DNA of 64,000 nt from Polychytrium aggregatum. Taxonomy: Eukaryota; Chytridiomycota; Chytridiomycetes; Polychytriales. The stretch is from NCBI RefSeq assembly GCF_025602895.1, contig NW_026516233.1, forward strand, positions 1-64,000. The letters are read 5' to 3'. Position numbers and translations under genes: made by a program. Positions 26,929 to 46,423 of this stretch are shown here, piece after piece. A model generated the notes under the pieces. That model searched no databases, was not told the DNA's origin, and worked only from the letters and a program-made list of their open reading frames with translations. Each line of letters begins with the position of its first letter. Within the stretch, counting starts at the first letter, position 1.

Positions 26929-27479
26929 GCGGGGTATCGCTTCTGGTTCGAGAACCAGTTCTTGACAAAGTCTCGGACTGCTTCGTTGATGAAATCGGCA
27001 GCGACACCTGTCTGGCAGATCCAGTGGTCCTTGTCGTAGCAAGAAAGGACACCGACGCGCTGTCTCAGGTGCTCCAGGAGGACTGTCTTCTTCTTCTTGG
27101 GTGGATGAGGTTTCGGTGGCTCTGGAATCAGGATCTCGCCAAGGCGATTCTTCCACTTATTGTTGGGGTACTGCTTCTGGAGAGCATTGCTGGCAGCCAT
27201 GTATGGCTCTCGCTCTCGTTTCCAGACTTGGAGTCGCTCGAGGTCTGCTTGCTGGTGGGATGAACTGACTCTGGCGTAACAAACTATGGACCTGGTTGTG
27301 ATGGGCTGGGTGAGGCAGAAGACTCGCTCAATGTCCCGCACATTGGAGAGTCTGTGTCCGTTCTCGTTGGGGCGGATGTATCGCACTTTCCCAGCATCGG
27401 CCCACTTGGACAGGGTGGATGGGACGAGGCCGAACTGCTTGGTGAGTTTGTGGATGGATATGTATTTTTCATCGCTCAT
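26929..27479 (-). pseudogene. IS607-type serine recombinase remnant (MerR-HTH plus N-terminal resolvase motif)
   Basis: From Met 27,479 the frame begins with a MerR-like winged helix (YISIHKLTKQFGLVPSTLSK, KVRYIRPNENGHR). Next comes the catalytic entry motif of IS607-family serine recombinases, CYARVSSSHQQADLER, with the nucleophile Ser after RV. After DLER the usual recombinase core (GSGLNFKR-type helix and the DRL.RFG motif) is absent. A Lys/Pro-rich stretch and an unrecognised domain (SCYDKDHWICQ, NEAVRDFVKNWFSNQK) follow. The last three apparent residues are read from the A-tail of LINE-B, so that insertion cut the 3' end. In eukaryotes IS607 TnpA is known to travel with Fanzor2 nuclease genes; none is seen here. 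Confidence 0.6.
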
Positions 27480-27765
27480 GGAAGGCAGGGTTGTTGTCGA
27501 TGCTGGCCCGTTCTTACCCTTGCCCAAGAAAAAAAATCAGGCAGATTCGACACACTGATTGAACGGACGCCGGCCCGGACGACGAGGATACTATGTCGCA
27601 ATTCAGGGTGGGCTCGTCCTCTTCCTATCACTGAGAGGGGCTTCATCGGACCTCCTTATTGATTCTTCAGGAGTCACAGTGATTGCATATCTGGCTTTGC
27701 GATTGCAGCTGGGATCAGCCGGATCGCTGGAGCGTTGAGGTAGATCAGTCGTTGAGGAAGAAGTG

Positions 27766-30700
27766 TTAGATGAGTGGAGGAACGAGGGCGAGGAGTGGTG
27801 GGCTTACCAGGATGATGACGGGACGGACAGGATTTATCTTGCTCATCACGAAAAATACACCGGATGGGGGAGTAAAGCAATGAGCCGAGCTGAAGAGGAG
27901 GAGTGGAATCTTGATGCGATGGCTGCCGTGGCGGATCCATTGGGGAGCGTTATCGATTCCGATCCACTGGGATGAAGAATTTGAGTCGGATGCGGCGATG
28001 AAGTTGGTGGGATTATAGTTGGAAGAAATCCACTGGTCACCACGGCGGACGAAACAAGTTCGACTATTATCCCAGGCCCAAATCTTGATCGGGTTGCCTT
28101 CGAATGAGATTGCCATGGAGTTCATGTAGTTCGGGTGCCCCTCGAGGGTGTGCTTCACCTGGCCAGTGGTGGCATCCCACACCTTGATGGTCTTGTCACG
28201 AGAGCCAGAGACTACCCACTTGCCATCAGGTGAGAATGCCACGGATGTCACAATATCTGTATGTTCCTCGAGAGTGTGCTTCAGTTGGCCCGCAGAAGCA
28301 TCCCACACCTTGATGGTCTTGTCTGTCGAGCCAGAGGCTATCCACTCGCCATTGGGTGAGATCGCCACGGAGTTCACATTGTTTGTGTGTCCCTCGATGA
28401 TGCGCTTCACCCGACCCGTGGCGGTATCCCATATTTTGATGGTCTTGTCACGGGAACCGGAGGCAATCCACTTGCCATCAGGTGAGAATGTCAGGGAGTA
28501 CACCCAGTATGTGTGTCCCTCAAGAGTGTGCTTCACCTGGCCAGTCGAAATATCCCACACTTTGATGGTCTTGTCACCGGAGCCGGAGGCAATCCACCTG
28601 TCATCAGGTGAGAATGCCACGGATGTCACAATATTGGTGTGTTCCTCGAGAGTGTGCTTCACCTGGCCCGTCGAAATATCCCACACCTTGATGGTCTTGT
28701 CAGTCGAGCCAGAGGCTATCCACTCGCCATTGGGTGAGATCGCCACGGAGTTCACATTGTTTGTGTGTCCCTCGATGATGCGCTTCACCCGACCCGTGGC
28801 GGTATCCCATATTTTGATGGTCTTGTCACGGGAACCGGAGGCAATCCACTTGCCATCAGGTGAGAATGTCAGGGAGTACACCCAGTATGTGTGTCCCTCA
28901 AGAGTGTGCTTCAACTGGCCAGTCACGGCATCCCATACTTTGATCGTCTTGTCACGAGAGCCAGAGACTACCCACTTGCCATCAGGTGAGAATGCTGTAG
29001 ATGTAGCGGTATCTGTGTGTCCCTCGAGGGTGTGCTTCAGCTGGCCAGTGGTGGCATCCCACACCTTGATCGTCTTGTCGTCGGAACCAGAGGCGATCCA
29101 CTTGCCATCAGGTGAGATCGCCACGGAGTTCACACTTTTCTCGTGTCCCTCGAGAGTGTGCTTCACCTGGCCAGTCGAAATATCCCACACCTTGATGGTG
29201 TTGTCACTAGAGCCAGAGGCAATCCACTCGCCATCTGATGAGATCGCCACAGAGTTCACATATCCTGTGTGTCCCTTGAGGTTGTACTTCCACTGGCCAG
29301 TAGCGGCACTCCACACTTTGATGGTCTTGTCGGAGGAGCCAGAGACAATCCACCTACCATCTGGCGAGATTGCCACAGAGTTCACTTCTTTTGTGTGTCT
29401 CTTGAGGGTGTGTTTCAACTGGCCAGTGATGATATCCCACACCTTGATCGTCCTGTCCTCGGAACCAGAGACAATCCACCTGCCATCGGGTGAGATCACT
29501 ACGGAGTTCACACTATTTTCATGTCCATCGAGAGTATGCTTCAACTGGCCAGTGGCAGCATGCCACATTTTGATTGTCTTGTCACCGGAGCCGGAGACAA
29601 TCCACTTGGCATCAAGTGAGATCGCCATCGAGTTCACTCCACCATCATGTCCGCTCATTGTCATCTCACACGGATCCCAGGTGGGTGCTGGACCGGCCGT
29701 GACCAGGAACGGGATCTTGTCCTCGAGTCGGTCGGCATATGTCTTGTAGATCGCCGTCTCCTTCGGTGTGAATGCAAACCCCGAGTTGTACACCTGTGGT
29801 GCACTCTTGATGATCGGATCGGCAAACTCGCGGATGAATCGATACGTGTCCTTGACCAGTTCCTTCGTGGTATCGTCGACGATGGTGCTGGGTGCCTTGT
29901 CAATCACTCCTCGCAGCACAGCCAGTTGCTCGGCAATCTCCTGAATACGGTGTGTGAGCGACCCACACTCGAGCCAGAAGAACACATGCGTCTTGACGAA
30001 CCGAGTGAGCACCGCTGCAGCATCGACAGTCTCGGCCGACTGCCACACCGAACTCGACTCGGCCACTCCTTCCACACACCACACAAAGTGTGTGATCCAG
30101 TGGGCGACGCTGTATCGCAGCGACGGTGTGATCTTGTCTGCGACCCTGTCCTCGAGGTCTGGGGTGTTGTCGTGAAAGTCGTAGATCTCGCAGATGTTGA
30201 CCACTGGCTCGTGCGAGAGGATCACTCCGAGACATCCCTGGGCAAACACCGTGTGGAACGAGCCCGACACATGCCATGGATGGCCAGCCGATGCGTCGCC
30301 GAGGAGATAGTCCGCCACCGACTTGTGGTTGAACTTGACTTCGGTGTTGGTGGACGGGCTGCCTCGGGGACCCAGTCCATTGGCGCCAGGATCGAGGACC
30401 AGACTGAGGCTCTTGAGACACTCGCAAACGACGCCGATCTCGAGTCCAAACACATCGGCGATGATCTGCGGGGTCAGGATCGACTGGGCCGTGGCGATGG
30501 CCGACACCACCGTGACCAACTCGGCCGGGTGGCTCGACTGCGAGTGGATCTTGGCGAATGTCTTGTGGTACAGCTGCCCGACATCGGCAGCGCTGTCGTT
30601 GATGTCCTTGATGGTGGTGAGTGTCACTGGGCCGTCCGTGGATGCTGCGTCGACGGTGTTGAGGATCAGGTTGATCCACACGAATGTCTTGGACTGGTCC

Positions 30701-32806
30701 AGCAGGATGGCGACTGCCTCGGTGCGGTCCAAGTCACTGAGAGTGTCATACACTCGCAGTCGGTGGCGGATGAACACCTCGAGGTCACGGATGTTCTCCT
30801 CGCTCGAGGGTTCGATTGTCTTGGTCGGGACTCCATCGAATGCTGCCTTGATGTCCTCCTCGGGTCGGGATGTCAGCAGCAGCTTGAACCACGGACGGGT
30901 CCTGCTCAGCTCGACAAAGCGCCAGGCAAGCAGACTGAGCAGCTGGTCGCGCGGAGAACACTCGTCCAGTCCATCCACCAGGATCATCACCGATCCCTTG
31001 GGTCTGTATTCGCCAATGGCTTCGAGTGGATCAGCAATCACGGCCTTGAACAGATCGTTGATGCTCATCTTGTCGAGATCGTCTTTCTTGTGGCCAGCCT
31101 CGAGCAGCTTGCGGCCGATCGGCGAGTACCACTTGCACAGACCGTATGCGATGGTGTTCAACACAACTCGTGGATCGCTCTTGCGAGTGTCGTTGTACTT
31201 GAGGAACAGCGCCGACACCAACTGTGCGTTTGCCTGGAGGATGTTGGCGATCTGGGCGGCGGCGACAGACTTGCCCACACCAGCAACGGCATTGACCCAC
31301 AGGACAGTGTCGGTGGTGTCCTGGTTGACCCACTCGGTAGTCTGGTCGAACAGCCACTGGCGAGTGCCTTCGACAAACAGATGCTCAAGTGCTTGTCTGT
31401 CCAGGGTTGAGTCGATGGGACTGAGGAGGAGTCGCAGGGCGTGGTTCTCGTTGGCAGTGAGGACAGTCGATCCACTCGGCAGATAGGCTGGTACGGTGGC
31501 AACGAGGCTGGTTTTCTTCCAAGTCTCGCGGATCTCGGGGACGAGTCTGTGGATGTGTGAGTCAGCATCTAGATGGTCTGCATCAATGAACTGATGGATG
31601 AGACGGATGCCATCAGCAAGTCTTACAGACACACTCACTTGGTGACGGCATAGTCGTCGGCGGCAATCAGCGCCTGCAGCTTGAGCAACTCCTCGAGAGT
31701 CTGGCGCACGGTGAGGGGAGGGCTGATCTGGTGCAGGTTGGAGGGACTTGCTCTGTGGCAGTGGATGGCATTGGGAAAGTCGTTTGTGTTGGGGAACCAG
31801 TCCCTGGTGTACTTGGTGCCGTCAATCATCACACTTGACTTGATGAGGATCGGCAGGATCTGGACGGGCGAGCGGGTGTTCTGGGTCTCCTTCATCTGCT
31901 TCAGAGCCAGCTCAATCTGGGACAGGATCGTCGGTGAGTAGATGGCGAGTGGATGGTGCTGGACTGGATCGACGACTCTCACCTCGAGGAACTGGTTGTC
32001 GGGACGGGTGTTGGCATTCTTGGTTCTCTTGAGTCCAGCCTCGGAGAGGAGGAGCACAATGACCTTGGAGTTGGCCAGGCCGTTCATAAAGCCATCCTCC
32101 CAGTCCAGTCCGTTCTCGAGGCATCGGGCGTCCAGGTAGACATGGGAGGGATGCTGCTCGCCGACACGACCAGCACTGAGGGCCGAGTGGAGTTTGACAG
32201 CAGTCACCTCCTCACTGGCCACACGATAGCTGGATGGATGCAATATCGATGAGATGGATGCGAGATGGATGCGAGATGGATGCGAGATGGATGTGAATGG
32301 ATCGTGGGCAACAACAATCGCCACCAACAAACCTGATGAAGATGTCGTGGATATGGAAGCCGTTGGTGCAAGTCCACTCGGGATTGAGGACAGGCGGGTT
32401 GTATTCTCGCTCGTTGGCAGCAGGAGTGAGGGTCGAGGTAGAAATGGCAACGACTGGAGGGGCAGTGGGAGTTGTGATGGCTTGTTGGTTGTGGTCTCGC
32501 TGAGCTCGTTTGATCTTGGTGATTGCTCCAGACTTGAGACCGATTGCACTCATTTCCTCGCCCGGCATATCCAGGATCTGGATGGGGATTGGTATCAGCC
32601 ACCGGGCAGCGGCCACACTCTACCACCTCATCAGCACATACCGAGTCGATGGTGTCGTATTCGTTGTCCAGCAGACATTGCCTGTTTCTCTCCAGTCCAT
32701 ATCGTTTGAGGAAAGCGTCAAAGTCGTCTGTTCAGGGCAAGCCACCAGTCAGCTGCTGTGCAAGTGTCCACCATCCTGCCACGATGCGGCACTCACCTCC
32801 CGACAT
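27766..32806 (-). CDS. SAM-TIR-NACHT-WD40 receptor-like protein (STAND/NLR class)
   Basis: My model has five exons: 32806-32797, 32727-32642, 32577-32333, 32229-31639 and 31546-27766. All splice sites are GT-AG, and phases fit through to the stop (about 1,570 residues). Residues 1-62 form a SAM domain (FDAFLKRYGLERN ... IGLKSGAITKIKRA). A TIR domain (about 108-260) begins DIFISYRVASEE and has CLENGLDWEDGF and VIVLLLSEAG; Glu in ILSQIELAL could be the catalytic NADase residue. The NACHT ATPase has Walker A AGVGKS (about 400) and Walker B ILVDGLDEC (about 500). A helical post-NACHT module precedes 12 canonical plus one degenerate WD40 repeats (about 945-1465). STAND proteins of this layout are intracellular sensors; the ligand is unknown. 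It is transcribed divergently from the kinase gene at 33,484. Confidence 0.88.
28120..29660 (-). repeat. Coding array of 126-bp WD40 units with a 378-bp internal duplication
   Basis: Each unit is 42 codons with the signature [12 protein letters not shown]. A three-unit block is nearly identical at an offset of 378 bp; for example GTCGAG at 28,325 recurs at 28,703 with matching flanks for about 200 bp. Confidence 0.9.
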
Positions 32807-33483
32807 TGCAGAGTCCCAGGACAGGCGATGTCAATGGAAGGCAGATTGACAGAAGGCGAGGGGGAATGAGAAGGCAGGGAGACGCCACCAGTTTTGGGGA
32901 ATCAACTTGCCAGCGAAGCCAAATGGAGCCAGGGTGGATCCAGGTTGGAGCCGGGTGGCGATGCAATCAACTCTGGTCAATCCAGCACACAATCTCGCCT
33001 TTGACACTTCATCATCTTTCATGGGCCATCATGGCAGGGCACTGTGGTGTGGAAGCAAGGTGATGGTCTTGGAGTTCGGGGAGTCGGTAGGCTGTTCGGT
33101 GTCCTTGTGACGACATTGATCTCGGATTTGACCTTGACATCCTTCCGAGTGTGGGCAATGAGGACTGGCTGTTCGAAGCAGAGGTGGTTGCCAAGATAGA
33201 TCCGGCAGGTCTGATATGGAATATATGAGCCACATACTTGGATGACAGGATGCGGCTTCGATTCCACATTCGATTTCATGATCGATTCATGTTCAATGAC
33301 TGTGGCAGTGCAAGAGGAACAACGACTCCAGCCATCAAACAAACGAATCGAGCCAGATTTGTGTGTGTGATCTCGATAGCCAGTGTTTGGCTGGCCAGGG
33401 TTTAGTTCCCTCACCAAATCCTGCCCATCTCCATTTCCTGCTTGCCTCCCTGTCATCCTATCCAATTGTCTCCCATATTCACC
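32807..33483. other. Divergent intergenic region between the TIR and kinase-Sel1 genes
   Basis: 677 bp with no supported gene. It must hold both promoters. A GTTTGGCTGGCCA box at 33,385-33,397 lies 99 bp before the kinase start. A long minus-strand frame across it is a shadow that continues antisense into the kinase gene. Confidence 0.6.
33385..33397 (+). promoter_or_regulatory. Candidate shared promoter box GTTTGGCTGGCCA
   Basis: The same 13-mer occurs at 40,359-40,371, 120 bp before the Sel1-only gene. Both copies follow a TGTGTGTG run. It is either a retained duplicate of the promoter or a common regulatory site. Confidence 0.4.
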
Positions 33484-35502
33484 ATGGCCAGCAGAGCCAT
33501 CATCAGCCCCGCTCCCGAGCGTCCGTCCTGGTACATCTCGCCCAGGGACATCACCGACCGCTCGGCCAACCCCATCGGCCGCGGTGGCTTTGGCGAGGTC
33601 TTCACTGGCACATACTTTGGCTCCAAGGTCGCCATCAAGCAGCTCCTCGGAAACTACAACAACCGGGAGCTCGCTGACTACAACCATGAGATCGATATCT
33701 GGCAGAAACTCAGCCACCCCAACATCCTCCCTCTGCTCGGTGCCTGCGACAAAGACGACGACGGCAATCCGATTCCTCCCTTCATGGTCTCGCCCTTCAT
33801 GCCCAACGGCACCCTTCGCAACCATGTTGCCAACAACAATGTCCCACTTGAGGAGAAGCTCCGTCTCCTCTTCCAAGCTGCATCGGCTCTGGCATACCTC
33901 CATTCCCGCCGCATCATCCACGGCGATCTCAAGGCCCTGAACATTCTCCTGGACGGCTTGAACAACGCCGTCGTCACCGACTTTGGCATGTCCCGCACCA
34001 AGCACACCTCTGCCTCGCTGGACCGCAACCGATCCATGGGCCCCACCGGCGGTACCGACGGTTACATTGCACCCGAGATGCTGGACGATGATGATCCCAG
34101 TGGCACGACCATGAAGACCGACGTCTACGCCTTCGCCATCACCATGTATGAAGTCCTCAACGATGCCAAACCCGTCTGGGTCACCAGCAACGGACAAGCA
34201 ATGCTCAGCCGCGCTATCGAACGCATTTCATGCAACGGCAAGCGCCCCAAGCGTCTCGATGGCATCCCCGACGATATCTGGGCCCTCATCGAGCTCTGCT
34301 GGCAACAAGATCCCGCCGCCCGCCCTGCCTTCACCGAGATCCTTGCCGTCCTCCAGCCATACAACCGAGCTGTTATCCCTGCAAGCGCTGCTCTCGCTGC
34401 TCCAGCCGCCGCCAAGTTCCCTTCCGTCAACCGGGTTGCCAGCCATTTCACCACTCTCAGCGTGAACAACCAGCCCCCATCCCAGTCCAGTCGTCCTGCC
34501 GAGCTCAAGTTTGACGGTATCGAATCGGCCACTCGTCTCCCTGCCTCCATTATCTCCCGCGCCAAGCAAGGTGATCCCGATGCCTGTCTCGATGCTGCCA
34601 AGATGGTCTCGGAGGGTCTCCCTGCACGCCACCAAGATTGGAAGCTCGCCGCCCAGCTGTTCAAGGCCGCTGCCGACCGCGGCAGCCTCGAAGCATCTTT
34701 CCAGCTGGCCTGGCTCGCGTTCCTGGGCGAGGGAATGGCCAAGAACGACCGCAGCGCCTTCGACCACTGGCAAGAAGTCAGCACCAAGTCGGATGACAAG
34801 GTCCTCAAGCCCATCGCCACTCACATGGTCGGTTGGATGCATTATCTTGGCCGGGGCACTCAGCAGGACATACAGAAGGGCACCAAGATCATCCGCGACA
34901 ACAAATCGGATGAGTTCAAGCTGGGGGAAGACGAGTGTCTGGCAGCGCGATGGAACGCCATCAAGTCTGATTCACCCGCATCCTGCAAGTTCTTCGAGCT
35001 GTGCCAGTTGGGATCGGAGCAAGAATGGCTGTGCAGACACTTGATGGCTGTGTGTGTGTTCCATGGATTCGGAACCATAGAGGACGAGAAGCAGGCAGCA
35101 GGCACCTTTGAGCAGCTCGCCAACGAAGGCCACAGCGACAGCCAATTGTGGATTGGAGAGTGCTACTACGATGACTGGGGAGTATCTAGGGACTGGAGGA
35201 AGGCATTCGGGTGGTTCAGCAAGTCTGCTGGCAAAGGCAATTCGTATGGGCAGTGGAGGGTTGGCCGCGGCTACCACCGTGGATACGGAGTCACCAAGGA
35301 CCACACCAAGGCAGTCGAGTGGCTCCGCAAGTCGGCCGGGCAAGGAAATCGGTATGGACAAGATATTCTCGGCTTCTGCTACCATGATGGGTATGGTGTC
35401 CCCAAGAACATCGACACCGCCATCTTCTGGTACCGCAAGTCCGCCGACCAGGGATGCGATTGGGCCATCGACAGTCTCAAGAAACTCGACCAGTGGCCCT
35501 GA
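33484..35502 (+). CDS. TKL-like protein kinase with C-terminal Sel1 repeats
   Basis: A single-exon gene of 672 residues from Met 33,484; an in-frame Met at 33,442 is less likely. The kinase domain spans about residues 15-290. It has the glycine loop GRGGFGEV, the ATP lysine in KVAIKQL, the catalytic loop HGDLKALNILL (HGD where HRD is usual), DFGMSRT and IAPEML. A linker leads to Sel1-like repeats (about 370-672). These include a block with HWQEVSTKSDDKV and HMVGWMHYLGRGTQQD and four typical repeats near the end (FGWFSKSAGKGN, VEWLRKSAGQGN, IFWYRKSADQGC). Sel1 repeats form a solenoid for protein contacts. The C-terminal part is closely shared with the gene at 40,479 and the kinase part with 42,416-46,423. 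It lacks a signal peptide and is probably cytosolic. Confidence 0.9.
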   Translation: MASRAIISPAPERPSWYISPRDITDRSANPIGRGGFGEVFTGTYFGSKVAIKQLLGNYNNRELADYNHEIDIWQKLSHPNILPLLGACDKDDDGNPIPPFMVSPFMPNGTLRNHVANNNVPLEEKLRLLFQAASALAYLHSRRIIHGDLKALNILLDGLNNAVVTDFGMSRTKHTSASLDRNRSMGPTGGTDGYIAPEMLDDDDPSGTTMKTDVYAFAITMYEVLNDAKPVWVTSNGQAMLSRAIERISCNGKRPKRLDGIPDDIWALIELCWQQDPAARPAFTEILAVLQPYNRAVIPASAALAAPAAAKFPSVNRVASHFTTLSVNNQPPSQSSRPAELKFDGIESATRLPASIISRAKQGDPDACLDAAKMVSEGLPARHQDWKLAAQLFKAAADRGSLEASFQLAWLAFLGEGMAKNDRSAFDHWQEVSTKSDDKVLKPIATHMVGWMHYLGRGTQQDIQKGTKIIRDNKSDEFKLGEDECLAARWNAIKSDSPASCKFFELCQLGSEQEWLCRHLMAVCVFHGFGTIEDEKQAAGTFEQLANEGHSDSQLWIGECYYDDWGVSRDWRKAFGWFSKSAGKGNSYGQWRVGRGYHRGYGVTKDHTKAVEWLRKSAGQGNRYGQDILGFCYHDGYGVPKNIDTAIFWYRKSADQGCDWAIDSLKKLDQWP

Positions 35503-35977
35503 TGTCCGTCTCGAATACCAACTCGCTAGCAGCCATGGTCCTCCAGCCCCATTTGCAACCAGAGCTACAAAGCAAGCCATATCAGCATACCCATCATATC
35601 GCCATGATTCCAGTAGTGGACTAGCAAGGAGATTCCTACGAAACGGAAATGGCCAGGTCATCTTCTGTCTGACCTTCAATTCCCCACCAAATGCTGACCC
35701 GAAAATGAGTTAGTTGACCATCCGATCAATTTGATTTGATTCAGCCGTTTGCCACCCGTCCCCAACTCGCTCCATCCCATGTTCCAGATGCCGGAATGGT
35801 TCATCGGCTTTGTTGAAACGGCATCTGCGGTCGGGTTTGGAGTTTGAACACAAATGGCGACGACAGAGACTGATCCATGCGCATAATAGCATGGCACAGT
35901 TGCACTTTATTCATGACGTCCGTTCACCGGTTGCGATCGATGTTCTTGTGCTGGTCATGAACATATTCATACCGGCT
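35503..35977. other. Convergent intergenic spacer
   Basis: 475 bp between the 3' ends of the kinase-Sel1 and kinase-WD40 genes. Only shadow frames are present; I see nothing else in it. Confidence 0.6.
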
Positions 35978-38900
35978 TCAACGGAAGAACTTTGCCAGTC
36001 CCTTTGGTTTGGCGGCTTCGATTCTTCTCGCCTCCTCAACCTTTCTTGCCTGCTCTTGCGCAACTCTTGCTTCCTCGACCTTTCTCTCTTCTTCGTACTT
36101 TCTAGCTTCGGCATATATCGTTTGTTCTTGAGCGATTCGCGCCTGTTCTTCGCAGTATGCTGCCACGAGCCGACTTGCAAGGATCGCTGCTGCACGAGCT
36201 AGGTTGTGGGGATTATTCGAGTTGCTGATGTACTTGGCAAACACAACTTGGATTTCAGGGATGCCCAGGTACACAGGCTGATGTTTATTAATGGTTAGTC
36301 GGGGGATGTGGGCACTGAAATGGTGGTCCGACAGACTTACCAAAATATGGCTGACGATCTTCTTGCTGGGGCGGCCAAGATTCAATGGTATCTTGATGGC
36401 ATGAACTCCGTGGCGGATCCACTGTGGCTGATTGTCGATTTCAACCCACTCAGCGAATAACAGTGAGCTGGAAGCCGCGACAAAGGACGCCGGACTATCC
36501 CAGCTACGGACAAAGCCGTTGCCACGACGAACCCAGATGATATCGTTGCCATCGTTTTGACGGGAGAGGATTGAGTTGCCATCGGATGAGATCGCCACGC
36601 TGTTGACAGCGCCTGTGTGTCCTTCGAGGGTGTACTTCAACTGGCCCACGGTAGCATCCCACACCTTGACAGTCTTGTCACTTGATCCAGAGACGAACCA
36701 TTTGCCGTCGGATGAGATGGCTATTGAGCTAACAGCGCCTGAATGACCCTCGAGGCTGCGTTTCAGCTGACCCGTGGTGGCATCCCACACCTTGATAGTC
36801 TTGTCGTATGAGCCGGAGGCCAGCCACTTGCCGTCGGCTGAGATGGCTACGGAGTACACATAATTGATGTGTCCCTCGAGAGTGTGCTTCAGCCGGCCCG
36901 TAGTAGCATCCCACACCTTGATAGTCTTGTCGTATGAGCCGGAGGCCAGCCACTTGCCGTCGGCTGAGATGGCTACGGAGTACACATAATTGATGTGTCC
37001 CTCGAGAGTGTGCTTCAGCCGGCCCGTAGTAGCATCCCACACCTTGATAGTCTTGTCGTATGAGCCAGAGGCCAGCCACTTGCCGTCGGGTGAAAAAGCC
37101 ACAGAGTTCACCTGACTGGTATGTCCCACTAGAGTGTACTTCAAACTGCATGAAATAGTATCCCAAAGCTTGATTCTGCTGTTGTTTCCCCTTTCGACCA
37201 CCGCCACAAGCGTGCCATCAGGTGAGATTGCCGATTGGAATTTCATCTCCAAATGACTGGTGAAGGCTCTCTCGATTTGCCCGGTGCTTGCGTTCAGATG
37301 CTTGATTGTGCAGTCTGACTGGACAAGCACAAGCGTCGTGGCATCGGGTGCGGCTATCATGGCTGCAACACCCATTGATATCGATCTCAACTCGCAAGTC
37401 GCAGCATTCCACAGCTTAATAGTTCCATCGCTTGACCAAGATGCAATCCAGGTCCTACCTGGTGAAATCACATATGACCCCACCTCCAATTGTCCCTCCG
37501 TCGATTGCACTGGGCTGTCCCAGTGGCTCTTAAGACCCAGAATAGCCAAGAATGGAATCTTGTCCTCGAGCCGAGAAGCATATGTCTGGTATATCGCCGT
37601 CTCCTTTGGAGTGAAGGCATACCCCGAGTTGTACACCTGAGGTGCACTCTTGCTGATCGGGTCGGCAAATTCGCGGATGAATCGGTGAGTGTCCTTGACC
37701 AGTTCCTTCGTGGTATCATCAAAGGCGGTGCTCGATGCCATTGCGAGTGCTTCCTCCAGCGAGCGAAGCTGTGTGGTAAGCTCTGATATCACATGAGTCA
37801 GCGAACCAGCTTCCAGCCAAAATAGCACATGGCTGGTGAGGAACTGGCTGAGCAAGTCGCCCAAGCCAGACGCACGGTACTGCTTCCAGATCTGCCGGTC
37901 AAACGATTCTTCGTTGATGCACCACACAAAGTGTGTGATCCAGTGGGCGACGCTATATCGGAGCGATGGTGTAATCTTGGCTCTGACTCGGCCCTCGAGG
38001 TCAGGGATTTTGTCGTGAAAGTCGTAAATGTCACAGATATTGATCACTGGCTCGTGCGAGAGGATCGACAGCAGACACTGGGAGGCGAACGCCATGTGAA
38101 ACTTGGGGGAGACATGGAACGGTTCGCTGGCAGACTCGTCTCCGAGCAGATATGCGACGATGGACTTGTGCTTCTGGGCCTTGGCCATTGAGCTGCCTTG
38201 CTTGTCGCGGTTCAGTTTGCCGGGATCGAGAACGGGTTCGAGCTCCTTGATGCACCGACGGACGATTCGGATGTCAACCCCAAAGAGATCGGTAATCATT
38301 CGGATAGTCAGGGGAGACTGTGACGTCGCGATGGCCGAGATGAACAGCGGGAGCTGCTGCTGATTGCGGGACTGGGCATAGATATTGGCAAAGGCCCGCT
38401 GGTAGCTGGTACTGTCGTTTCCATCGGAGACCGCAAACCACAGATCAAACTCATCGTCATCGTCTTCGTCTGAATCAAACTCAGCATCGACATGGAGCAG
38501 CTGCAGTGCGTCTGCCAGGCTCTTGACAGGAATTGGCTTGGACGTGAGCACTGCAGCAGCAAGAGGGGTTTGGGGAGTCAATGGTTCGGGGAAGGACATC
38601 CTGGGAGCGGATACTTCTTGTATTGGCTGGAACGACTCCAAGCGACGAGGGGCGATGATAGTGGGTCTTTGCACCACGTCTTGAATGGGAGAGATCTCAA
38701 TGGACTGACGGAGGATAGCAAGGATTTCGGGGAACTTGGGTCGCTGGGAGGGGTCTTGGTGCCAGCAGCGCTCGATGAGGGCACGGATGTCGTCGGGGAT
38801 GCCGTCGAACTGCTTGGGACGGTTGCCTCGGAGGACTTGGCGCTCGATGGCTGTGGGTCTCATTGGCTGGCCATCGTTGGTGACCCAGATGGGCTTGCAG

Positions 38901-39541
38901 TCATTGAGGATCTCATACATGGTGATGCCGAATGCATAAATGTCTGTGGTTATTGAAGATCCCATGGGGTCGTCATCATCAAGCATCTCGGGTGCCATAT
39001 AGTCAAGGGTGCCACCAGTTGGCTGGTCGCGGCGGGTTCGGTTGGCCGTGGCCGAAGTGTGCTTGGTTCTGGCCATGCCAAAGTCAGTCACAACGGCATT
39101 GGATGAGCCATCCAGCAGCACATTGAGGGACTTGAGGTCGCCGTGGACAATGTTGTTGCCGTGGAGATAGGCCATGCCAGAGGCGACTTGATACAGGAGA
39201 CGGACCTTCTCGCCAAGGGGTCGAGGGGTATCCGCTGCAGAAATGTGGCTGTGGAGGGTGCCATTGGGCATGAACGGCGAGACCATGAAGGGCTTGGTCG
39301 TGGTATCGCAGGCACCGAGGAGTGGAAGGACATGAGGATGAGTGAGTCTGTGCCAGATGCCGATCTCCCGTCCAAAGTCGGCGAGCTCGTTCTGGTTGTA
39401 GCCTCGATAGAGCTGCTTGACGGCGACAGGGGCGCCGTAGTATGAGGCAGTGAAAACCTCGCCAAAGCCGCCGGCTGCGAGTGGGGTGGCAGACCAGTTG
39501 GTGATGGCATCCTCGGGGATGTACCAGGATTTCTCAGCCAT
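35978..39541 (-). CDS. Protein kinase fused to post-NACHT module and WD40 repeats
   Basis: Met 39,541; one likely 63-bp intron (36,341-36,279, GTAAGT...CAG) whose removal keeps the frame, giving about 1,166 residues. The kinase domain (about 10-285) has AGGFGEV, the lysine of [25 protein letters not shown] and MAPEML. After an acidic linker, residues about 385-725 match the segment that follows NACHT in the TIR gene, including [32 protein letters not shown] and [14 protein letters not shown]. No NACHT ATPase lies between. About five clear WD40 repeats follow, with more degenerate ones upstream. A Glu/Arg/Ala-rich coiled coil closes the protein. A kinase thus replaces SAM-TIR-NACHT on the same sensor scaffold. 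Confidence 0.88.
36781..37032 (-). repeat. Two nearly identical adjacent 126-bp WD40 units
   Basis: The units 36,781-36,906 and 36,907-37,032 match over almost their full length. A third, slightly diverged unit starts at 37,033. They encode [19 protein letters not shown] repeats of the kinase-WD40 gene. Confidence 0.9.
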
Positions 39542-40478
39542 AGTCGAAAAGGGAGAGAACAGGATGAGGAAAGCTGCTGGTGCAAACGGACGAGACCGAG
39601 TTGGAGAGGGATGGGGGCAATCCTCGGGTTTATCGCCCGGAACCGCTTCAGCAGATTGCAGAAGTGGCGCAATATCACTCGACTCAGAGAAGAATCAGCT
39701 GAGAACACAGGCGCGACTATCTCATGTTGTCGACGCGATTCTGAAACACCCAGTGATACGAGATGATTCGAATTTGGACAGATCCCGCCTCATCTGGGAG
39801 ATTTGACGAATGGCATTGGCCACTCCAGCCTGTCGCTGTGTGCTTTGCTATTTTTCTTCTCTCGCCCATTGTTTGTGTGCAGCCGCCAGGTCCTTTCGCC
39901 CGCATGTCGGCTCTGTGCGATCCGCTCGGTCCTTCTGGGATACTCTGCATCGAACCTTGCGTTGTTGTCGGCTTTTGGCGAGGCGCTGTCGTTCGTTACT
40001 CCAAATCCATCGCCCGGTCTCGATTCTGCGGGAGTTACAGAGGTATCAATCATCTGCCATGACAACCAAGTCTAACATGTCGGCCGCCTCGGCGTCTGGA
40101 TCCACAGCAACAACACCGAAAGCGACCGGCACAAATCATGGTCACGATACGAGAAGCCAACATTCGAATCTCCACCTCCATAGCCCCCCCCCATGAGCCG
40201 GTGAGAAACGGGATTCATCGTCCAAGTTCAGTCCATCATCAGTCACCAGACAAGATTGGGTGACTGATTCCATTCAACTTTGATTCGATTCTGATGGATT
40301 GGGCACTGGCTGCGCATGTGTGTGTGTGTCGTCAGTGGCCAGCCTTTGGCTTGCCAGCGTTTGGCTGGCCATGATTTGGCTGGCCGGGGTCCGGCTTGCT
40401 TCGCCACAACCTGCCTCTCTCTCCTGTCCATCGCCATCATCCACCTGCCTCCACCCTGTCTCCGTCAACTTGGTCAGT
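39542..40478. other. Divergent intergenic region between kinase-WD40 and Sel1 genes
   Basis: 937 bp without a supported gene. The right end has a TG run and three copies of a TTTGGCTGGCC-like word (about 40,340-40,390), including the 13-mer box at 40,359-40,371. The sequence from 39,780 to 40,200 gives only short shadow frames. Confidence 0.55.
40359..40371 (+). promoter_or_regulatory. Candidate shared promoter box GTTTGGCTGGCCA (second copy)
   Basis: Lies 120 bp before the Sel1 gene start and is identical to the box at 33,385. It is flanked by imperfect copies (CTTTGGCTTGCCA, ATTTGGCTGGCCG). Confidence 0.4.
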
Positions 40479-42059
40479 ATGAACGAGCCTGCTTCGAACA
40501 CAGCGCCATCTCACACTCAGCAAGCCCAAGATGAATCCAGGCCAACCTCGTCGATGCCCGATATCACCCAGCTCTCACTCGCGCACAACCCAGACATTTT
40601 CACCATCATCTGCTTCAATGACGGTTTCCAACACGCACTCGATTTGAACGCCATCAAGACCCTCCTTCGAGTGTGCAAACGAGCCCAGTCTCTCCTGAGC
40701 TCCAAGGTGCCTCGCCTCCACTCCTGGTGTCAGAGTGCAGAACTGTGCCATCCAGACCGACGGTTGCGGATCGGCCTCACACCGAGCGACAAGATTGCCA
40801 TCTCGCTTCATTGCAAGGATCAAGGCACAACCGATAGATCTTGGATCGTTGCCTTGGCCAGCCGGAGCAATACTGCTGCATGGTTCTTTATGGCAAGGAT
40901 CCTCCAACTCGATCTTATCGGTCCGTTGTCGGCGAACATGCCCAAAAAGGGAAGGATCAACCAGCGAATCCTGCGCCATCTGAAGAAGGCTGCTGATGCC
41001 GGCCATCTCATGGCACAGCTCCACCTGGCCGGGTGCTATAACGATGGCATCGTAACCAAGAAAGACTACGCCAAGGCCTTCGAGCTGTATCAAGGGCTTG
41101 CAGAACGTGGAATGGCGCAGGCCCAAGTTGCCCTCGGTCGATGCTATGAGAATGGCGAAGGAGTTGATCAAGACTTTGATACAGCCATCGATTGGTATTC
41201 CAAGGCCGCAGATCAGGCCAGCGAAGACGGTCGTCTCCACATTGCATTCTTCCGTGGATGGTTCTCGTTCATCGGCCGCGATGTCGACCAGAGTGACGCC
41301 GACGCCTTCAGCCACTGGCAGGAAGTCAGCACCCAGTCCATCAACCCGGTCCACAAGTCCATCTCCACCCATATGGTCGGCTGGATGCACTACCTTGGCC
41401 GTGGTACCCAGCAAGATAAGCAGAAGGGCGTCAAAATTATCCGAGATAACGAATCGGATGAGTTCAAGCTCGGCGAAACCAATTGCTTATCCGTCATTTG
41501 GAGCTCGACTACCTCGTCCGATTCACTTGCAGCCCGCGAGTTCTTCGAGCTATGTCGGATTGGATCAGACCGAGACTGGCTCAGTAATCATCTCATGGCT
41601 GTGTGTCTGGTCCGAGGATTCGGAACCATGCAAGACCGAATGAGGGCAGCGGGCATCTTTGAGCAACTTGCCAACGAGGGCTACAGCGACAGCCAGTTTT
41701 GGATCGGAGAGTGCTTCTACCAAGGTTGGGGTGGACCGACGGACCGCAAGAAGGCATTCGAGTGGTTCAGCAAGTCGGCCGACCAAGGCAACTGGTTCGG
41801 GGAGTGGATGGTTGGTTTGTGCTACTTGCTTGGCACAGGAGTCACCCGGGATCGCTCTAAAGCAATCGAGTGGTATCGCAAGTCGGCCGAGCAAGGTTAC
41901 CGGTACCCACAAGCTTCTCTCGGCGACTGCTATAAGGATGGATGGGGTGTTGACGCAGACATCGACACCGCCGTCTTCTGGTACCGCAAGTCCGCCGACC
42001 AGGGATATCAAATGGCCATCAACAGCCTTATAAAACTCGGCCAGTGGCCCTCACCTTGA
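40479..42059 (+). CDS. Sel1-repeat protein without kinase domain
   Basis: A single exon of 526 residues from Met 40,479 (MNEPASNTAPS). The frame is open upstream to 40,299, but that part is low-complexity promoter sequence. The N-terminal 150 residues are unrecognised (FTIICFNDGFQHALDL, LLRVCKRAQSLL) and may replace the kinase of its paralogue. Sel1 repeats start near residue 180 (HLMAQLHLAGCYNDG). The middle block with HWQEVSTQSINPVHK and HMVGWMHYLGRGTQQD and the last four repeats match the kinase-Sel1 protein at 33,484-35,502 closely. It probably arose by duplication with exchange of the N-terminus and could act as a partner or competitor scaffold; that is an inference. Confidence 0.85.
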   Translation: MNEPASNTAPSHTQQAQDESRPTSSMPDITQLSLAHNPDIFTIICFNDGFQHALDLNAIKTLLRVCKRAQSLLSSKVPRLHSWCQSAELCHPDRRLRIGLTPSDKIAISLHCKDQGTTDRSWIVALASRSNTAAWFFMARILQLDLIGPLSANMPKKGRINQRILRHLKKAADAGHLMAQLHLAGCYNDGIVTKKDYAKAFELYQGLAERGMAQAQVALGRCYENGEGVDQDFDTAIDWYSKAADQASEDGRLHIAFFRGWFSFIGRDVDQSDADAFSHWQEVSTQSINPVHKSISTHMVGWMHYLGRGTQQDKQKGVKIIRDNESDEFKLGETNCLSVIWSSTTSSDSLAAREFFELCRIGSDRDWLSNHLMAVCLVRGFGTMQDRMRAAGIFEQLANEGYSDSQFWIGECFYQGWGGPTDRKKAFEWFSKSADQGNWFGEWMVGLCYLLGTGVTRDRSKAIEWYRKSAEQGYRYPQASLGDCYKDGWGVDADIDTAVFWYRKSADQGYQMAINSLIKLGQWPSP

Positions 42060-42415
42060 CGGCGCTCGCGGATGCCATACCACACGACCGAACATGCAAG
42101 CAGAGCCGCCAAGCAAACTACTCGCCACCAACGCCATCCCAGGCACCAAGATACCAAACAGTGGGCTTGCAGGGTGGCTGACATGTAGTACCAATTGCCG
42201 AATGATGCCGTACTGGACAGCCAATGAACCAATATACAAAACAATTCTACACCATAACAATCGCATATCTTGATCCACGGACTCGACATTACATCCTCGG
42301 GGCAGCCAAGGACGAGATTGTCGAGCGGTGTAATCCAATTGTGTAGCCCGAAACAACTATACTGCCCGCACGGCCCCCCGGTGATTGTTACCGGTTGCAC
42401 GTTGTGTAAAGGCCA
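42060..42415. other. Convergent intergenic spacer
   Basis: 356 bp between two convergent genes. I see no gene or structured element in it. Confidence 0.6.
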
Positions 42416-45400
42416 TCAGAACTCGTCCAGTTTGTCTTGGGCCTGGGTGTGGCCCTGATCTGCGGCCAGTTGGAGCCAGTATCGAGCCGTCTCCCCATTC
42501 TTGGCCGCTCCTTGGCCCAACTGGTAGCACAGCCCAAGGTTGAATTGAGCGTTTGCATTTCCTTGATGGGCAGCCTTAATGTACCACTCGACAGCTTTTA
42601 CGGGGTCCCGACTGACGCCACTGCCATTGTAGTAGCAAGTACCCAGGTTGTTCTGAGCGTCCGGACTTCCCTGGTTGGCCGACCTGCTGTACCACTCAAC
42701 AGCCCTGGCATAGTCTTGGTCGACACCGTTCCCCGTGTAATAGCACTCTGCGAGATTATCCTGACCATAGGAGTTTCCCTGATTAGCGGCCTTGGTGAAC
42801 CATTCCACAGCCTTGGAGTATTCCCGGTCGATTCCGGTGCCGTTGTAGTAACAAAGACCAAGATTTACTTGGGCAACTGCATTTCCCTGTTGGGCCGCCT
42901 TTGTATACCACTCGAATGCTTGGGTCCAGCTTTGGGCGACGCCATAACCGTACTCGTAGCAGAGACCGAGACCGTTCTGGCCGGAAGCATTGCCCTGTTT
43001 GGCCGATTTAGAGTACCACTCGAATGCCTCGGAATAGTCTTGGTCGACACCATTGCCGTGATAGCAACAGTCACCGAGATCATCTTGACTGGAAGCATGG
43101 CCTTGATTGGCGGCCTTGGTGAACCACTCCACAGCTTTGGAATAGTTCCTGTCGACACCGTTGCCGCTGTAATAGCAACGGCCAAGGGCATGCTGGCCAA
43201 ACACATTGCCCTTGTTGGCCGACTTTGTGAACAGCCTGAAAGCCTGGACGTAATCCTGGCTAACGCCGCTACCACTGTAGTAGCAAAGACCGAGGCCGCT
43301 CTGGCCATTGGGGTTTCCTTGGCTGGCCGATCTGGTATACCACTCGAACGCCTTGGTATAGTCTTGTACTGCCCCATTCCCGAAATAGTAGCAGTCACCG
43401 AGATAGCCCTGTCCGGATGCATTACCTTGATTGGCGGCCATAATATACCACTCGATAGCCTTGGAGTAGTCCCGGTCGACCCCGCCGCCGTTGTAATAGC
43501 AGTTGCCGAGATTGGATTGGGCAGCTGCATTTCCCTGTTGGGCCGCCTTTGTATACCACTCGAATGCTTGGGTCCAGCTTTGGGCGACGCCATAACCGTA
43601 CTCGTAGCAGAGACCGAGACCGTTCTGGCCGGAAGCATTGCCCTGTTTGGCCGATTTAGAGTACCACTCGAATGCCTCGGAATAGTCTTGGTCGACAACA
43701 TCGCCATTGTAATAGCAATGGCCGAGCGCACTCTGGGAATCTGCGTTTCCTTGCTCGGCGGCTTTAAAATACCACTCGACAGCCTTGGCATAATCTCGGC
43801 GGACACCACTGCCGTACTCATAGCATAAGCCGAGGCTGTGCTGACCATACGGGTTACCTTGACTGGCAGCTTTGGCATACCACTCAAACGCTATGGCATA
43901 ATCTCGGTCGATACCATTACCGCTATAATAGCAGCGACCGACGCAGCATTGGGCATTGGAGTTTCCCTGGTTGGCCGATCTCGTGTACCACTCGAAAGCC
44001 ATGGCGTGGTCTTGGGCAACGCCGTTGCCGTACTCATAGCATAGGCCGAGACTGTGCTGGCTATGCGAGTTACCTTGATGGGCAGCCTTGGTATACCATT
44101 CAACAGCTTTGATGTAATCCCGATCGACACCATGACCATTGTAATAGCAAAGACCGAGGCCGTTCTGACCGTTGGGGTTTCCTTGGTTGGCCGATCTAGT
44201 GTACCATTCGAAAGCCACGGTATGGTCTTGCATAGTGCCATAGCCGTTGTAGTAACAGACGGCGATGTTACATTGTGCGTTGGAATTGCCCTGTTTGGAC
44301 GATCTGGTGTACCACTCGAAAGCCTTGGAGTAGTCCTGGTCGACTCCGTTGCCGTTGTGATAGCAGACCCCAAGGGCGTTTTGGCCTTGCGAATCGCCCT
44401 GGCTGGCCGATTTGGTGAACCACTCATAGGATTTGGCATAGTCCTTGGAGACACCATATCCCAGATCAAAGCATTTGCCGAGTAGAAACTGACTGATTGC
44501 GTGTCCCTGGTCAGCCAATTTTTGGAGCATTGTAGCGGCCCGCAGCGGGTCGTCCTTGGTACCGAACCCGCCGATGTAGCATCTCGCGGCCAGATGTTTG
44601 CAGAGCCAATCGCCCTCCGATCCAGACTCGCAAAGCTTGAAGAATTTGGTGGCGACATCCGAAGACGATCGGACAGATTTGTTGAGATTCAGAGAGTCCT
44701 GGCTCAGCCCAAAATCATCCGTCTTCGACTCGGCCAAGAGCCGGTATCCCCTTCCCACATCCAGTTGTGTCGCGCGACCTAGGTAGCAGTACCATCCCAT
44801 CATGAATGTGGCGATAGGCTTCATGGCGGCGTCGTAAGCTTGCTGATAAACCGCTTGCCAGTAGGCGAATGCCTCAGTGTCACTCTTGGCCACGCCGATA
44901 CCGGTGAAATGCAGCCAGGCTAGCTCGAACGCTGCTTCGACACTCCCTTTGTCGGCGGACGTATGATAGAGCTTGGACGCGAGTGTCCAGGCGGGGTCGT
45001 TGGTCGACTTGCCGTCCGTGATTTGACGAGCGGCAGTGAGATGGGCCCCAATTTCGCCACGCTGGATATCGATAACCGTTGCCCGAGAGAGGCCATAGAC
45101 GACGCTCAGACTCTCAAGAAGTTCTGGATCGAGAAAGGACTGTGAGGCAAGGGATGTCGGAGGTCGAAGCGGCGTGTTGTCTGTCTCGGCGCCGCCGCGC
45201 TCTTCGGATATGTCGCTTGTGATGGATAGATTTTGTGGAAGAACAGCAGTGATCTTGGTCGCAGAAGGTGCGATGGCGTTGTATCCAGCCAGAGAGTGGA
45301 CGACATCAGCAAATCTCGGACGCTTGGCAGGATTCTGATGCCAGCACGACTCGATGATTGACCAGATTTCGTTGGGGATACCATCCAATCGGTAGGGCCT

Positions 45401-46423
45401 TTGGGCGTTGCAAACCGTGCTCTTGGTCGTTTGAGCTTGCACCGCCAGGTTTTGATCAGACACCCAAACTGGCACGCCGTTGTTCAGGACTTCGTACATA
45501 GTGACGGCGAATGCGTAGACATCGGCCTTGGTGGTGAGGGATGTTGTGGTGTCCAGCATCTCGGGAGCTTTGTATCTATCGGTGGCTCCGATGGCACTGT
45601 TGGACCGGCTGGGGTCCATCAGTGATGAAGCAAGCCTGGTTCTGGACAGACCAAAGTCGGTGACGACGGCCTGGAAGGAGCCATCCAGAAGGATGTTTGT
45701 CGCCCTAAGGTCGCCATGGATGATTTCTTTGGTGTGCAGATAATCCAGCGCAGATGCAACTTGGTATAGAAGCCGGAGCTTCTCCTCGAGAGCGACAGTG
45801 TTCTTCGCAACATAGTCACAAAGTGTGCCATTTGGCATGAAGGGGGAAACTATGAGCGGAGCGACCTCCTCGCCTGCATCGTCCGGAACACAGACTCCAA
45901 GCAGGGGGAGGATATGGGGATGACTGAGACTCTGCCAAACCCCAATTTCGCTGTGGAAGCTGGTAAGCTCATGGTCTTTTGGAGTTGCGAAGAGCTGCTT
46001 GATGGCGACCTTGGAGCCAAAGTATGTGCCAGTGAAGACTTGACCAAACCCGCCATGGCCGATGGGGCTGGTGGAACGGTCGGTGATATCTCTCGGGGAG
46101 ATCCACCAGGAAGGGCGGTCATCGGGTCGGCGGACAGTCGGTTGGTCGGTCGCCTCGGGCATCTCAGGCATCTCAGGCATCTCAGGCATCTCAGGCATCT
46201 CAGGCATCTCAGGCATCTTGGGCATCTCGGGCATCTTGGGGCGGATGGGAGGAAAGGGCGGGAGCGGCTCGCCGTCTGGCTCGTGCTTGGCTTGGGGGCG
46301 GTGCCACACAACAATGCGCCACATGATGTCATTGGTGTGTCCGGCTGAACCACGCGTTGTTGGCGAAGAGGCCACGAGGAACCCAAGATTTGTGAATGGT
46401 GATCGGCGTATGTCTGTACTCAT
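42416..46423 (-). CDS. Protein kinase with 19 tandem Sel1 repeats
   Basis: A single exon of 1,335 residues from Met 46,423. The N-terminus has a tandem MPE tract (about residues 64-91). The kinase domain (about 105-380) has HGGFGQV, the lysine of KVAIKQL, HGDLRATNILL, DFGLSRT and KAPEML; the catalytic-loop Lys of DLK is Arg here, so activity may be reduced. The block equivalent to the HWQEV/GWMHYLGRG segment of the paralogues follows (YWQAVYQQAYDAAMK, GWYCYLGRATQLD). Then 19 consecutive 36-residue Sel1 repeats of the form GLCYYNGxGVDQDYxKAFEWYTKAANQGN run almost to the end. Neighbouring paralogues share the same layout with fewer repeats. Probably a cytosolic scaffold kinase. Confidence 0.9.
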   Translation of the reverse strand: MSTDIRRSPFTNLGFLVASSPTTRGSAGHTNDIMWRIVVWHRPQAKHEPDGEPLPPFPPIRPKMPEMPKMPEMPEMPEMPEMPEMPEMPEATDQPTVRRPDDRPSWWISPRDITDRSTSPIGHGGFGQVFTGTYFGSKVAIKQLFATPKDHELTSFHSEIGVWQSLSHPHILPLLGVCVPDDAGEEVAPLIVSPFMPNGTLCDYVAKNTVALEEKLRLLYQVASALDYLHTKEIIHGDLRATNILLDGSFQAVVTDFGLSRTRLASSLMDPSRSNSAIGATDRYKAPEMLDTTTSLTTKADVYAFAVTMYEVLNNGVPVWVSDQNLAVQAQTTKSTVCNAQRPYRLDGIPNEIWSIIESCWHQNPAKRPRFADVVHSLAGYNAIAPSATKITAVLPQNLSITSDISEERGGAETDNTPLRPPTSLASQSFLDPELLESLSVVYGLSRATVIDIQRGEIGAHLTAARQITDGKSTNDPAWTLASKLYHTSADKGSVEAAFELAWLHFTGIGVAKSDTEAFAYWQAVYQQAYDAAMKPIATFMMGWYCYLGRATQLDVGRGYRLLAESKTDDFGLSQDSLNLNKSVRSSSDVATKFFKLCESGSEGDWLCKHLAARCYIGGFGTKDDPLRAATMLQKLADQGHAISQFLLGKCFDLGYGVSKDYAKSYEWFTKSASQGDSQGQNALGVCYHNGNGVDQDYSKAFEWYTRSSKQGNSNAQCNIAVCYYNGYGTMQDHTVAFEWYTRSANQGNPNGQNGLGLCYYNGHGVDRDYIKAVEWYTKAAHQGNSHSQHSLGLCYEYGNGVAQDHAMAFEWYTRSANQGNSNAQCCVGRCYYSGNGIDRDYAIAFEWYAKAASQGNPYGQHSLGLCYEYGSGVRRDYAKAVEWYFKAAEQGNADSQSALGHCYYNGDVVDQDYSEAFEWYSKSAKQGNASGQNGLGLCYEYGYGVAQSWTQAFEWYTKAAQQGNAAAQSNLGNCYYNGGGVDRDYSKAIEWYIMAANQGNASGQGYLGDCYYFGNGAVQDYTKAFEWYTRSASQGNPNGQSGLGLCYYSGSGVSQDYVQAFRLFTKSANKGNVFGQHALGRCYYSGNGVDRNYSKAVEWFTKAANQGHASSQDDLGDCCYHGNGVDQDYSEAFEWYSKSAKQGNASGQNGLGLCYEYGYGVAQSWTQAFEWYTKAAQQGNAVAQVNLGLCYYNGTGIDREYSKAVEWFTKAANQGNSYGQDNLAECYYTGNGVDQDYARAVEWYSRSANQGSPDAQNNLGTCYYNGSGVSRDPVKAVEWYIKAAHQGNANAQFNLGLCYQLGQGAAKNGETARYWLQLAADQGHTQAQDKLDEF
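42897..43710 (-). repeat. Sel1 array segment with a 648-bp internal duplication
   Basis: Units are 108 bp. A two-unit block (repeats 8-9 and 14-15) is nearly identical at an offset of 648 bp (six units); for example TTGTATACCA at 42,901 recurs at 43,549 with matching flanks. This points to unequal exchange or gene conversion inside the gene. Confidence 0.88.
46158..46238 (-). repeat. Coding 9-bp minisatellite (MPE tract)
   Basis: About nine tandem copies of GGCATCTCA and close variants encode Met-Pro-Glu triplets near the N-terminus of the 19-repeat kinase. Such tracts change length easily. Confidence 0.9.

Follow-up and report, generated by a model that had tools for sequence, protein, structure and literature searches.

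What kind of system is formed by five neighbouring genes that hold kinase, TIR, NACHT, WD40 and Sel1 modules in exchanged combinations? The genes lie at positions 27766-46423 of a 64,000-nucleotide stretch (the window) from the chytrid fungus Polychytrium aggregatum, whose 64.7 Mb genome is assembled in 418 contigs; the window is the beginning of contig NW_026516233.1, here called C235. A sequence-only reading had likened the cluster to loci for nucleotide-binding oligomerization domain-like receptors (NLRs) or for allorecognition. All five genes are present where that reading had placed them, and the start codons given for the first kinase-Sel1 gene (33484) and the Sel1-only gene (40479) are exact. 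We consider it probable that the cluster is part of a large chytrid repertoire of NLR-type recognition genes that act by the mechanism proposed below; a defence or recognition role is what we infer from the sequences.

The central observation is the reuse of one module behind two effectors. The block that follows the NACHT domain in the TIR gene (29737-30123) recurs behind a kinase at 37580-37966 with 63% identity (E 4e-50), as had been claimed. A kinase of the tyrosine kinase-like (TKL) type stands here in place of both TIR and NACHT. The gene at 35978-39541 lacks a P-loop motif, no NACHT occurs among the Pfam families listed for it with E values up to 1, and the nucleotide-binding domain expected of a fungal NLR is missing. 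When the kinase profile was compared with the PDB, the top matches (best 60 of 1365) were to tyrosine and TKL kinases, RIPK1/2 and B-Raf among them. The modelled stem segment of the kinase gene has Apaf-1 as its best structural match, and the post-NACHT block is probably part of an Apaf-1-like stem of a winged-helix domain (WHD) and HD2 that precedes the propeller. We assigned the names WHD and HD2 from what we take to be the Apaf-1 architecture. The kinase-WD40 proteins could also act as decoys or regulators by sequestering ligands or TIR-NLRs, with no signalling of their own, a role that would suit a form without NACHT and hence without ATP-driven assembly; integrated kinase decoys have been proposed in Sordariales NLRs, as far as the available text of that work goes. 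However, the active-site residues are intact in 14 of 15 aligned kinase domains (Lys in all 15, HGD and DFG in all except the degenerate L041), and we regard a decoy function as unlikely.

The sequence-only reading had treated the cluster as one special locus. Instead, the module belongs to a multigene family that is spread over the genome. The post-NACHT block gave 144 matches, which merge to 137 places; genome counts include near-duplicate contigs that we read as haplotigs, and the haploid number is therefore below 137. The block stands behind TIR at 89 places (midpoint of the TIR match 1.8-2.6 kb upstream), behind a kinase at 30 (kinase match 1.25-1.53 kb upstream) and behind neither, by these queries, at 18. 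Matches elsewhere in the genome are numerous as well, with at least 163 for TIR, at least 139 for the kinase, at least 116 for the Sel1-only gene and 106 for NPHP3_N. For the 18 places with neither effector, the idea of a further, third class of effector was rejected, the inspected places being of the kinase type, remnants of the NACHT type, little beyond the block itself or transposon-like frames. Among ten that were inspected, L041 is a diverged and L042 a truncated kinase type; the other eight hold NACHT-type stem remnants, little past the block, or frames that look transposon-like by eye. L018 and L028 have NACHT-type stems, yet no NACHT or TIR match. Four of the remaining six (C90, C223 and two on C320) are NACHT types, because the same strand carries an NPHP3_N match some 1.2 kb upstream of them. 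Beside the truncated block copy of L046, a gene on the opposite strand (1204-2799) reads as TIR and then NB-ARC (33.6 bits), the TIR being assigned by similarity to that of the window with no Pfam TIR match; it would represent a second NLR class in the same genome. Open frames of 1201-1409 amino acids on C13, C40, C114 and C123 each hold two kinase-domain matches and are predicted tandem-kinase proteins.

Do the two classes exchange their sensor ends? The plainest sign that they may do so comes from five kinase genes (L017 and L029-L032) in which the block is 77-89% identical to the TIR type and 55-62% to the core kinases. For reference, TIR-type rows of the alignment are mutually 88% identical in the WHD and 91% in the block, and core kinases are 48% and 58% identical to the TIR type. 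The WHD of the three chimeras in which it could be measured is 42-48% identical to the TIR type and 37-41% to the core kinases. In a tree of the WHD, 18 kinase rows form one clade (support 99/94; 100% of bootstrap trees). The same 18 rows need four changes in the tree of the adjacent block, where they form a single clade in 0% of bootstrap trees. With outgroups added to the WHD tree, the kinase clade is nested among NACHT-type rows (clade 99/98, fork 82/67), which suggests that the kinase form arose from a TIR-NLR. A single kinase clade for the block was rejected by approximately unbiased (AU) tests on DNA only (p 0.00027 with long rows omitted). These comprised 10 core kinases, four or all five of the chimeras depending on the segment, and 14 TIR rows, with L009, L010, L022, L033, L034, L037 and the rows with neither effector left out; in these data the WHD of the chimeras falls between TIR and core kinase rows. 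The starred branches of the block tree by themselves force just one change. Some tests weigh against exchange: the DNA test rises to p 0.12 once L032 is removed, and AU tests on protein do not reject a single clade (p 0.19, 0.11 and, for the outgroup set, 0.078). The outgroup tree and the protein test on the outgroup set omitted L004, L022, L028, L033, L034, L037, L041, L042, L043 and L046-L050. The proposed recombination of modules and the likeness to NLR or allorecognition loci are supported by the mosaics and by the WD40 sites, haplotype patches and partner junction described below, while some tests disagree.

The TIR gene had been drawn too short: its exons number at least four, and it extends to 32568. 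Three GT-AG introns (103, 66 and 92 bp) join it into one frame, the splicing being predicted. At the second junction the motif DNQFLEIELAL runs unbroken in a relative from Chytriomyces sp. MP71 (P0003), in agreement with the predicted splice. Splicing lifts the TIR_2 score above its curated cut-off, below which the unspliced open reading frame remains (19.6 bits); among 11 unspliced rows, four gave a TIR_2 match with E 0.01. The Glu of DNQFLE at the end of exon 2, which has the catalytic role in this family, is shared by all 11 aligned copies. A predicted structure for the TIR domain of the L046 paralogue is of low confidence (predicted local distance difference test score 41.5). NPHP3_N scores 100.5 bits, above its cut-off, the NACHT model 19.6 bits, below its own, and all 16 NACHT copies retain the P-loop and Walker B motifs. 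NTPase motifs, an effector and superstructure-forming repeats thus occur in one predicted spliced protein, and once spliced the gene is, by its predicted architecture, a TIR-NACHT-stem-WD40 fungal NLR. Intron 1 (32230-32332) contains a CATCCATCTCG-like short tandem repeat.

Variation in the WD40 repeats is concentrated at particular sites. Seven positions (10, 11, 12, 14, 30, 32 and 39) serve to classify the HNWD repeats of Podospora, according to the available part of PMC12222747. Five of these seven positions are among the nine most variable in the TIR and the kinase gene alike (p 0.0026 each). The register onto the HNWD positions was set from what we take to be the HET-E repeat, and in this register the hypervariability peaks at sites that appear equivalent to the HET-D/E specificity sites. 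The excess of nonsynonymous over synonymous pair differences at the seven positions was beaten by 3 of 20000 random position sets for the TIR gene and by 54 of 20000 for the kinase gene, which has only four units; the pairs are not independent. The eleven full units of the TIR gene are 55-100% identical (mean 68%, one identical pair), below the more than 80% within a gene that is typical of HNWD repeats.

Clustered differences were also found between C235 and its putative other haplotype, C32. Over 17.8 kb there are 80 substitutions and two gap columns; the differences have a median spacing of 4 bp, and 2000 random placements never gave a median below 90. Of the 80 substitutions, 71 fall into five patches with at least three each (Table). 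In the WD40 patch, C235 is 98.6% identical to another repeat of its own gene, and C32 at most 90%. In the patches at 32477-32612 and 34572-34698, C32 agrees with the paralogue on C9, and C235 is therefore the changed haplotype there. When the patch at 32046-32124 and the single site 31199 are taken together, C9 sides equally with the two haplotypes, 3 and 3. No donor from elsewhere was identified, a genome-wide search for one not having been made. The pattern fits gene conversion. Against this it must be said that consensus errors between paralogues would give the same patches.

Both neighbour pairs of the cluster are divergent, as had been described, with start codons 915 and 937 bp apart when the first ATG of the predicted exon 1 is taken as the TIR start. 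Homologues of the first intergenic region occur at C9, with the same pair of TIR-NLR and kinase-Sel1 gene (95-96% identity over 822 bp), and at C16 (locus L016; 94% over 738 bp), with a Sel1-only gene opposite the TIR-NLR. At L016 the homology to 32200-33356 of the window stops at the same base at which homology to the Sel1-only side (from 40393) starts; past this junction, alignments to the wrong side drop to about the level of shuffled sequence, with a score of 65 where shuffles reached at most 65, and of 98 where they reached at most 89, the latter slightly higher. We read this as one case of partner exchange, in which one TIR-NLR promoter appears with a kinase-Sel1 partner at two loci and a Sel1-only partner at a third. 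A kinase-WD40 gene and a convergent kinase stand at the spacing of the window also at C135 and C373. A divergent kinase or Sel1 neighbour is listed at at least 10 of the 89 TIR-type places, compared with 0.52 expected under uniform placement, and at least six are left when putative haplotig pairs are merged. A universal NLR-Sel1 pair was rejected on 12 sampled TIR-type loci: a kinase-Sel1 or Sel1-only gene is divergent at L012, L016 and L025 (the other haplotype of the window) and present on the same strand at L021 and L022, and none was seen upstream at the other seven, for which upstream frames were listed and Pfam was run for L019 alone.

A neutral, transposon-associated multigene family could produce a similar picture if repeat-rich genes were spread and mixed by ectopic recombination, with many copies decaying and no selection for recognition. 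Ty3-type retroelements that carry chromodomains, together with LINE-like reverse transcriptases, occupy much of the contig start beside the cluster (2295-24155), one retroelement each adjoins L019 (in the upstream frame, by Pfam) and L011, truncated copies occur among the places with neither effector, and nine listed TIR matches of at least 44% identity hold one or two stop codons, although six-frame matches can cross introns. But catalytic motifs are retained in nearly all aligned copies and amino-acid change is concentrated at propeller sites. In the one paralogue pair measured, window against C9, identity is 87-94% in the kinase and TIR-NACHT-HD2 modules, compared with 70% in Sel1 and 60% in WD40 (best 162-amino-acid stretch). 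Neutrality alone is thus an improbable explanation, and we return to the recognition repertoire.

Table. Features of the cluster in window coordinates.
Feature	Position	Strand	Remarks
TIR-NACHT-WHD-HD2-WD40 gene	27766-32568	-	1513-amino-acid spliced frame
Exons of the TIR gene	32568-32333, 32229-31983, 31916-31639, 31546-27766	-	further 3' intron possible
TIR domain	31836-32343	-	two introns inside; TIR_2 30.5 bits, cut-off 28
NACHT (NPHP3_N) domain	30865-31368	-	P-loop AVAGVGKS, Walker B VMILVDGLDE
WHD and HD2 block	29680-30597	-	WHD 30124-30597, HD2 block 29680-30123; homologous to modelled kinase-gene segment
WD40 repeats	28189-29574	-	11 full 42-amino-acid units
Patch in WD40 repeat	28491-28522		12 substitutions in 32 bp
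Patch in TIR exon	32046-32124		5 substitutions
Patch across exon 1 start	32477-32612		26 substitutions; C32 and C9 paralogue alike at 25 of the 26
Divergent intergenic region, TIR-NLR/kinase-Sel1	32569-33483		homologues at C9 and C16
Kinase-Sel1 gene	33484-35502	+	PK_Tyr_Ser-Thr 165 bits, Sel1 103 bits
Patch in kinase-Sel1 gene	34572-34698		9 substitutions; C32 equals C9 at 9 of 9 sites
Kinase-WHD-HD2-WD40 gene	35978-39541	-	no NACHT; Pfam kinase and WD40; no P-loop motif
Parts of the kinase-WD40 gene	38708-39541, 37523-38419, 36545-37174	-	kinase, WHD-HD2, WD40
Second divergent intergenic region	39542-40478
Sel1-only gene	40479-42059	+	Sel1 173 bits
Patch in Sel1-only gene	41352-41451		19 substitutions
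Large kinase-Sel1 gene	42416-46423	-	20 Sel1 stretches; Sel1 656 bits

Pfam kinase and Sel1 matches agree with the statement that the same kinase type is joined to Sel1 repeats in both kinase-Sel1 genes, and a Sel1 match lies within the Sel1-only gene as predicted. An F-box at the N-terminus of the latter, an idea from reading the sequence, was dropped as no Pfam family matched there. An open reading frame at 26916-27527 gives just a sub-threshold MerR match in Pfam; it reads like the start of an IS607-type serine recombinase and may be a relic of a Fanzor-type element. On the other side the cluster is adjoined by a sulfatase gene (46802-48843), with an OPT transporter (55852-58017) and a reductase-like gene with PP-binding and NAD_binding_4 domains (61034-62446) further along.

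How might such a repertoire work? In the TIR protein, the WD40 propeller would sense a ligand, sensing would open the WHD/HD2 stem and the NACHT ATPase would drive oligomerisation. Once clustered, the TIR domains would have an enzymatic signalling activity, most likely that of an NADase, with cell death or an immune signal as the outcome. In the kinase gene this stem and sensor are joined to a TKL-type kinase of the non-RD class, presumably active; since it has no NACHT, it would probably be activated by a clustering or release event at the sensor end, by itself or as part of a shared complex, and not by ATP-driven assembly. Where Sel1 and kinase-Sel1 proteins are driven by a divergent promoter, they may be co-expressed with the receptor and probably serve as its helpers or as a second kind of sensor. 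The set would diversify as genes are duplicated, undergo gene conversion and pass sensor ends from one effector class to the other. A bolder version, which we offer tentatively and think possible without calling it probable, is a plug-and-play design in which WHD-HD2-WD40 cassettes are interchangeable between the TIR-NLR and a NACHT-less kinase chassis and the Sel1 or kinase-Sel1 partners are replaceable via the divergent promoters; ligand, output and helper could then evolve separately. STAND proteins serve varied roles, and STAND receptors together with TKL kinases might sense substrates, mating or development, with no immune purpose. For Rhizophagus, whose kinase and Sel1 genes are present in high copy number, a part for these genes in perception of the environment has been suggested, in the accessible portion of that study. 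However, the TIR effector and hypervariable sites like those of HNWD proteins speak for recognition of nonself, so that we give this alternative a low probability. Immune-type receptors are little known in early-diverging fungi. With dozens of TIR-NLR places, kinase sister proteins that have the same stems and sensors, and signs that sensors and partners were exchanged, this genome would allow a direct test of how a receptor acquires a new output without losing its specificity, and of whether TIR and kinase outputs can replace one another behind a common sensor.

An undescribed TIR/kinase system had been suggested, and in part this is too strong. TIR- and kinase-bearing fungal NLRs are known as kinds; our literature search turned up no account of a kinase form that lacks NACHT or of partner exchange, and no paper combining NACHT, Sel1, kinase and chytrid, the titles of the P. 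aggregatum papers found being on other subjects. Relatives in the protein database number at least two for the stem of the kinase gene (8000 candidates scored), one for the TIR region (3360 candidates) and at least 45 for the kinase domain (8000 candidates scored). Among the matches listed for the last, one combines kinase with WD40 and one kinase with TIR_2 (Rhizophlyctis rosea P0029, in one protein); 10 of the 45 listed are from P. aggregatum itself, nine of them with Sel1.

A protein kinase is listed among the N-terminal domains of fungal NLRs in the available part of the literature, and the kinase is N-terminal here as well, but it also replaces NACHT. The text available on Sordariales places the kinase C-terminally in 9 of 12 kinase NLRs and describes NLR clusters and rare head-to-head pairs. 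In plant head-to-head NLR pairs the genes are likewise divergent and may share a promoter, but both partners are NLRs, whereas the partner here is a Sel1 or kinase-Sel1 gene, which sets the arrangement apart. Expanded kinase and Sel1 families are described, within the accessible text, for Glomeromycotina; going by these descriptions, their kinase-Sel1 and MLKL-like families resemble ours in joining kinase and Sel1 repeats and in large expansions, but ours stand beside TIR-NLRs and one exchange of partners is seen. Apaf-1 carries a CARD and, as in the TIR gene, has WHD and HD2 between its nucleotide-binding oligomerisation domain (NOD) and WD40; here TIR or a kinase takes the place of CARD, and the kinase form has no NOD. 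With HET-D, HET-E and HET-R of Podospora (NWD/HNWD) the system shares NACHT with WD40 and variation at seven equivalent positions, but it has TIR and not HET, a mean repeat identity of 68%, a chytrid host and a NACHT-less kinase sister form. The available text of a 2014 survey reports no NLR hits in the chytrids analysed (PMC4986451), TIR is mentioned in chytrid NLRs in the accessible part of PMC9815663, and that of PMC10197012 describes a small group of fungal TIR-NLRs. The Chytriomyces sp. MP71 protein P0003 is likewise TIR-NACHT-WD40, with 44% identity over the TIR region. Compared with other fungal TIR-NLRs, those of P. aggregatum are distinguished by their occurrence at dozens of places and by stems and sensors that they have in common with kinases.

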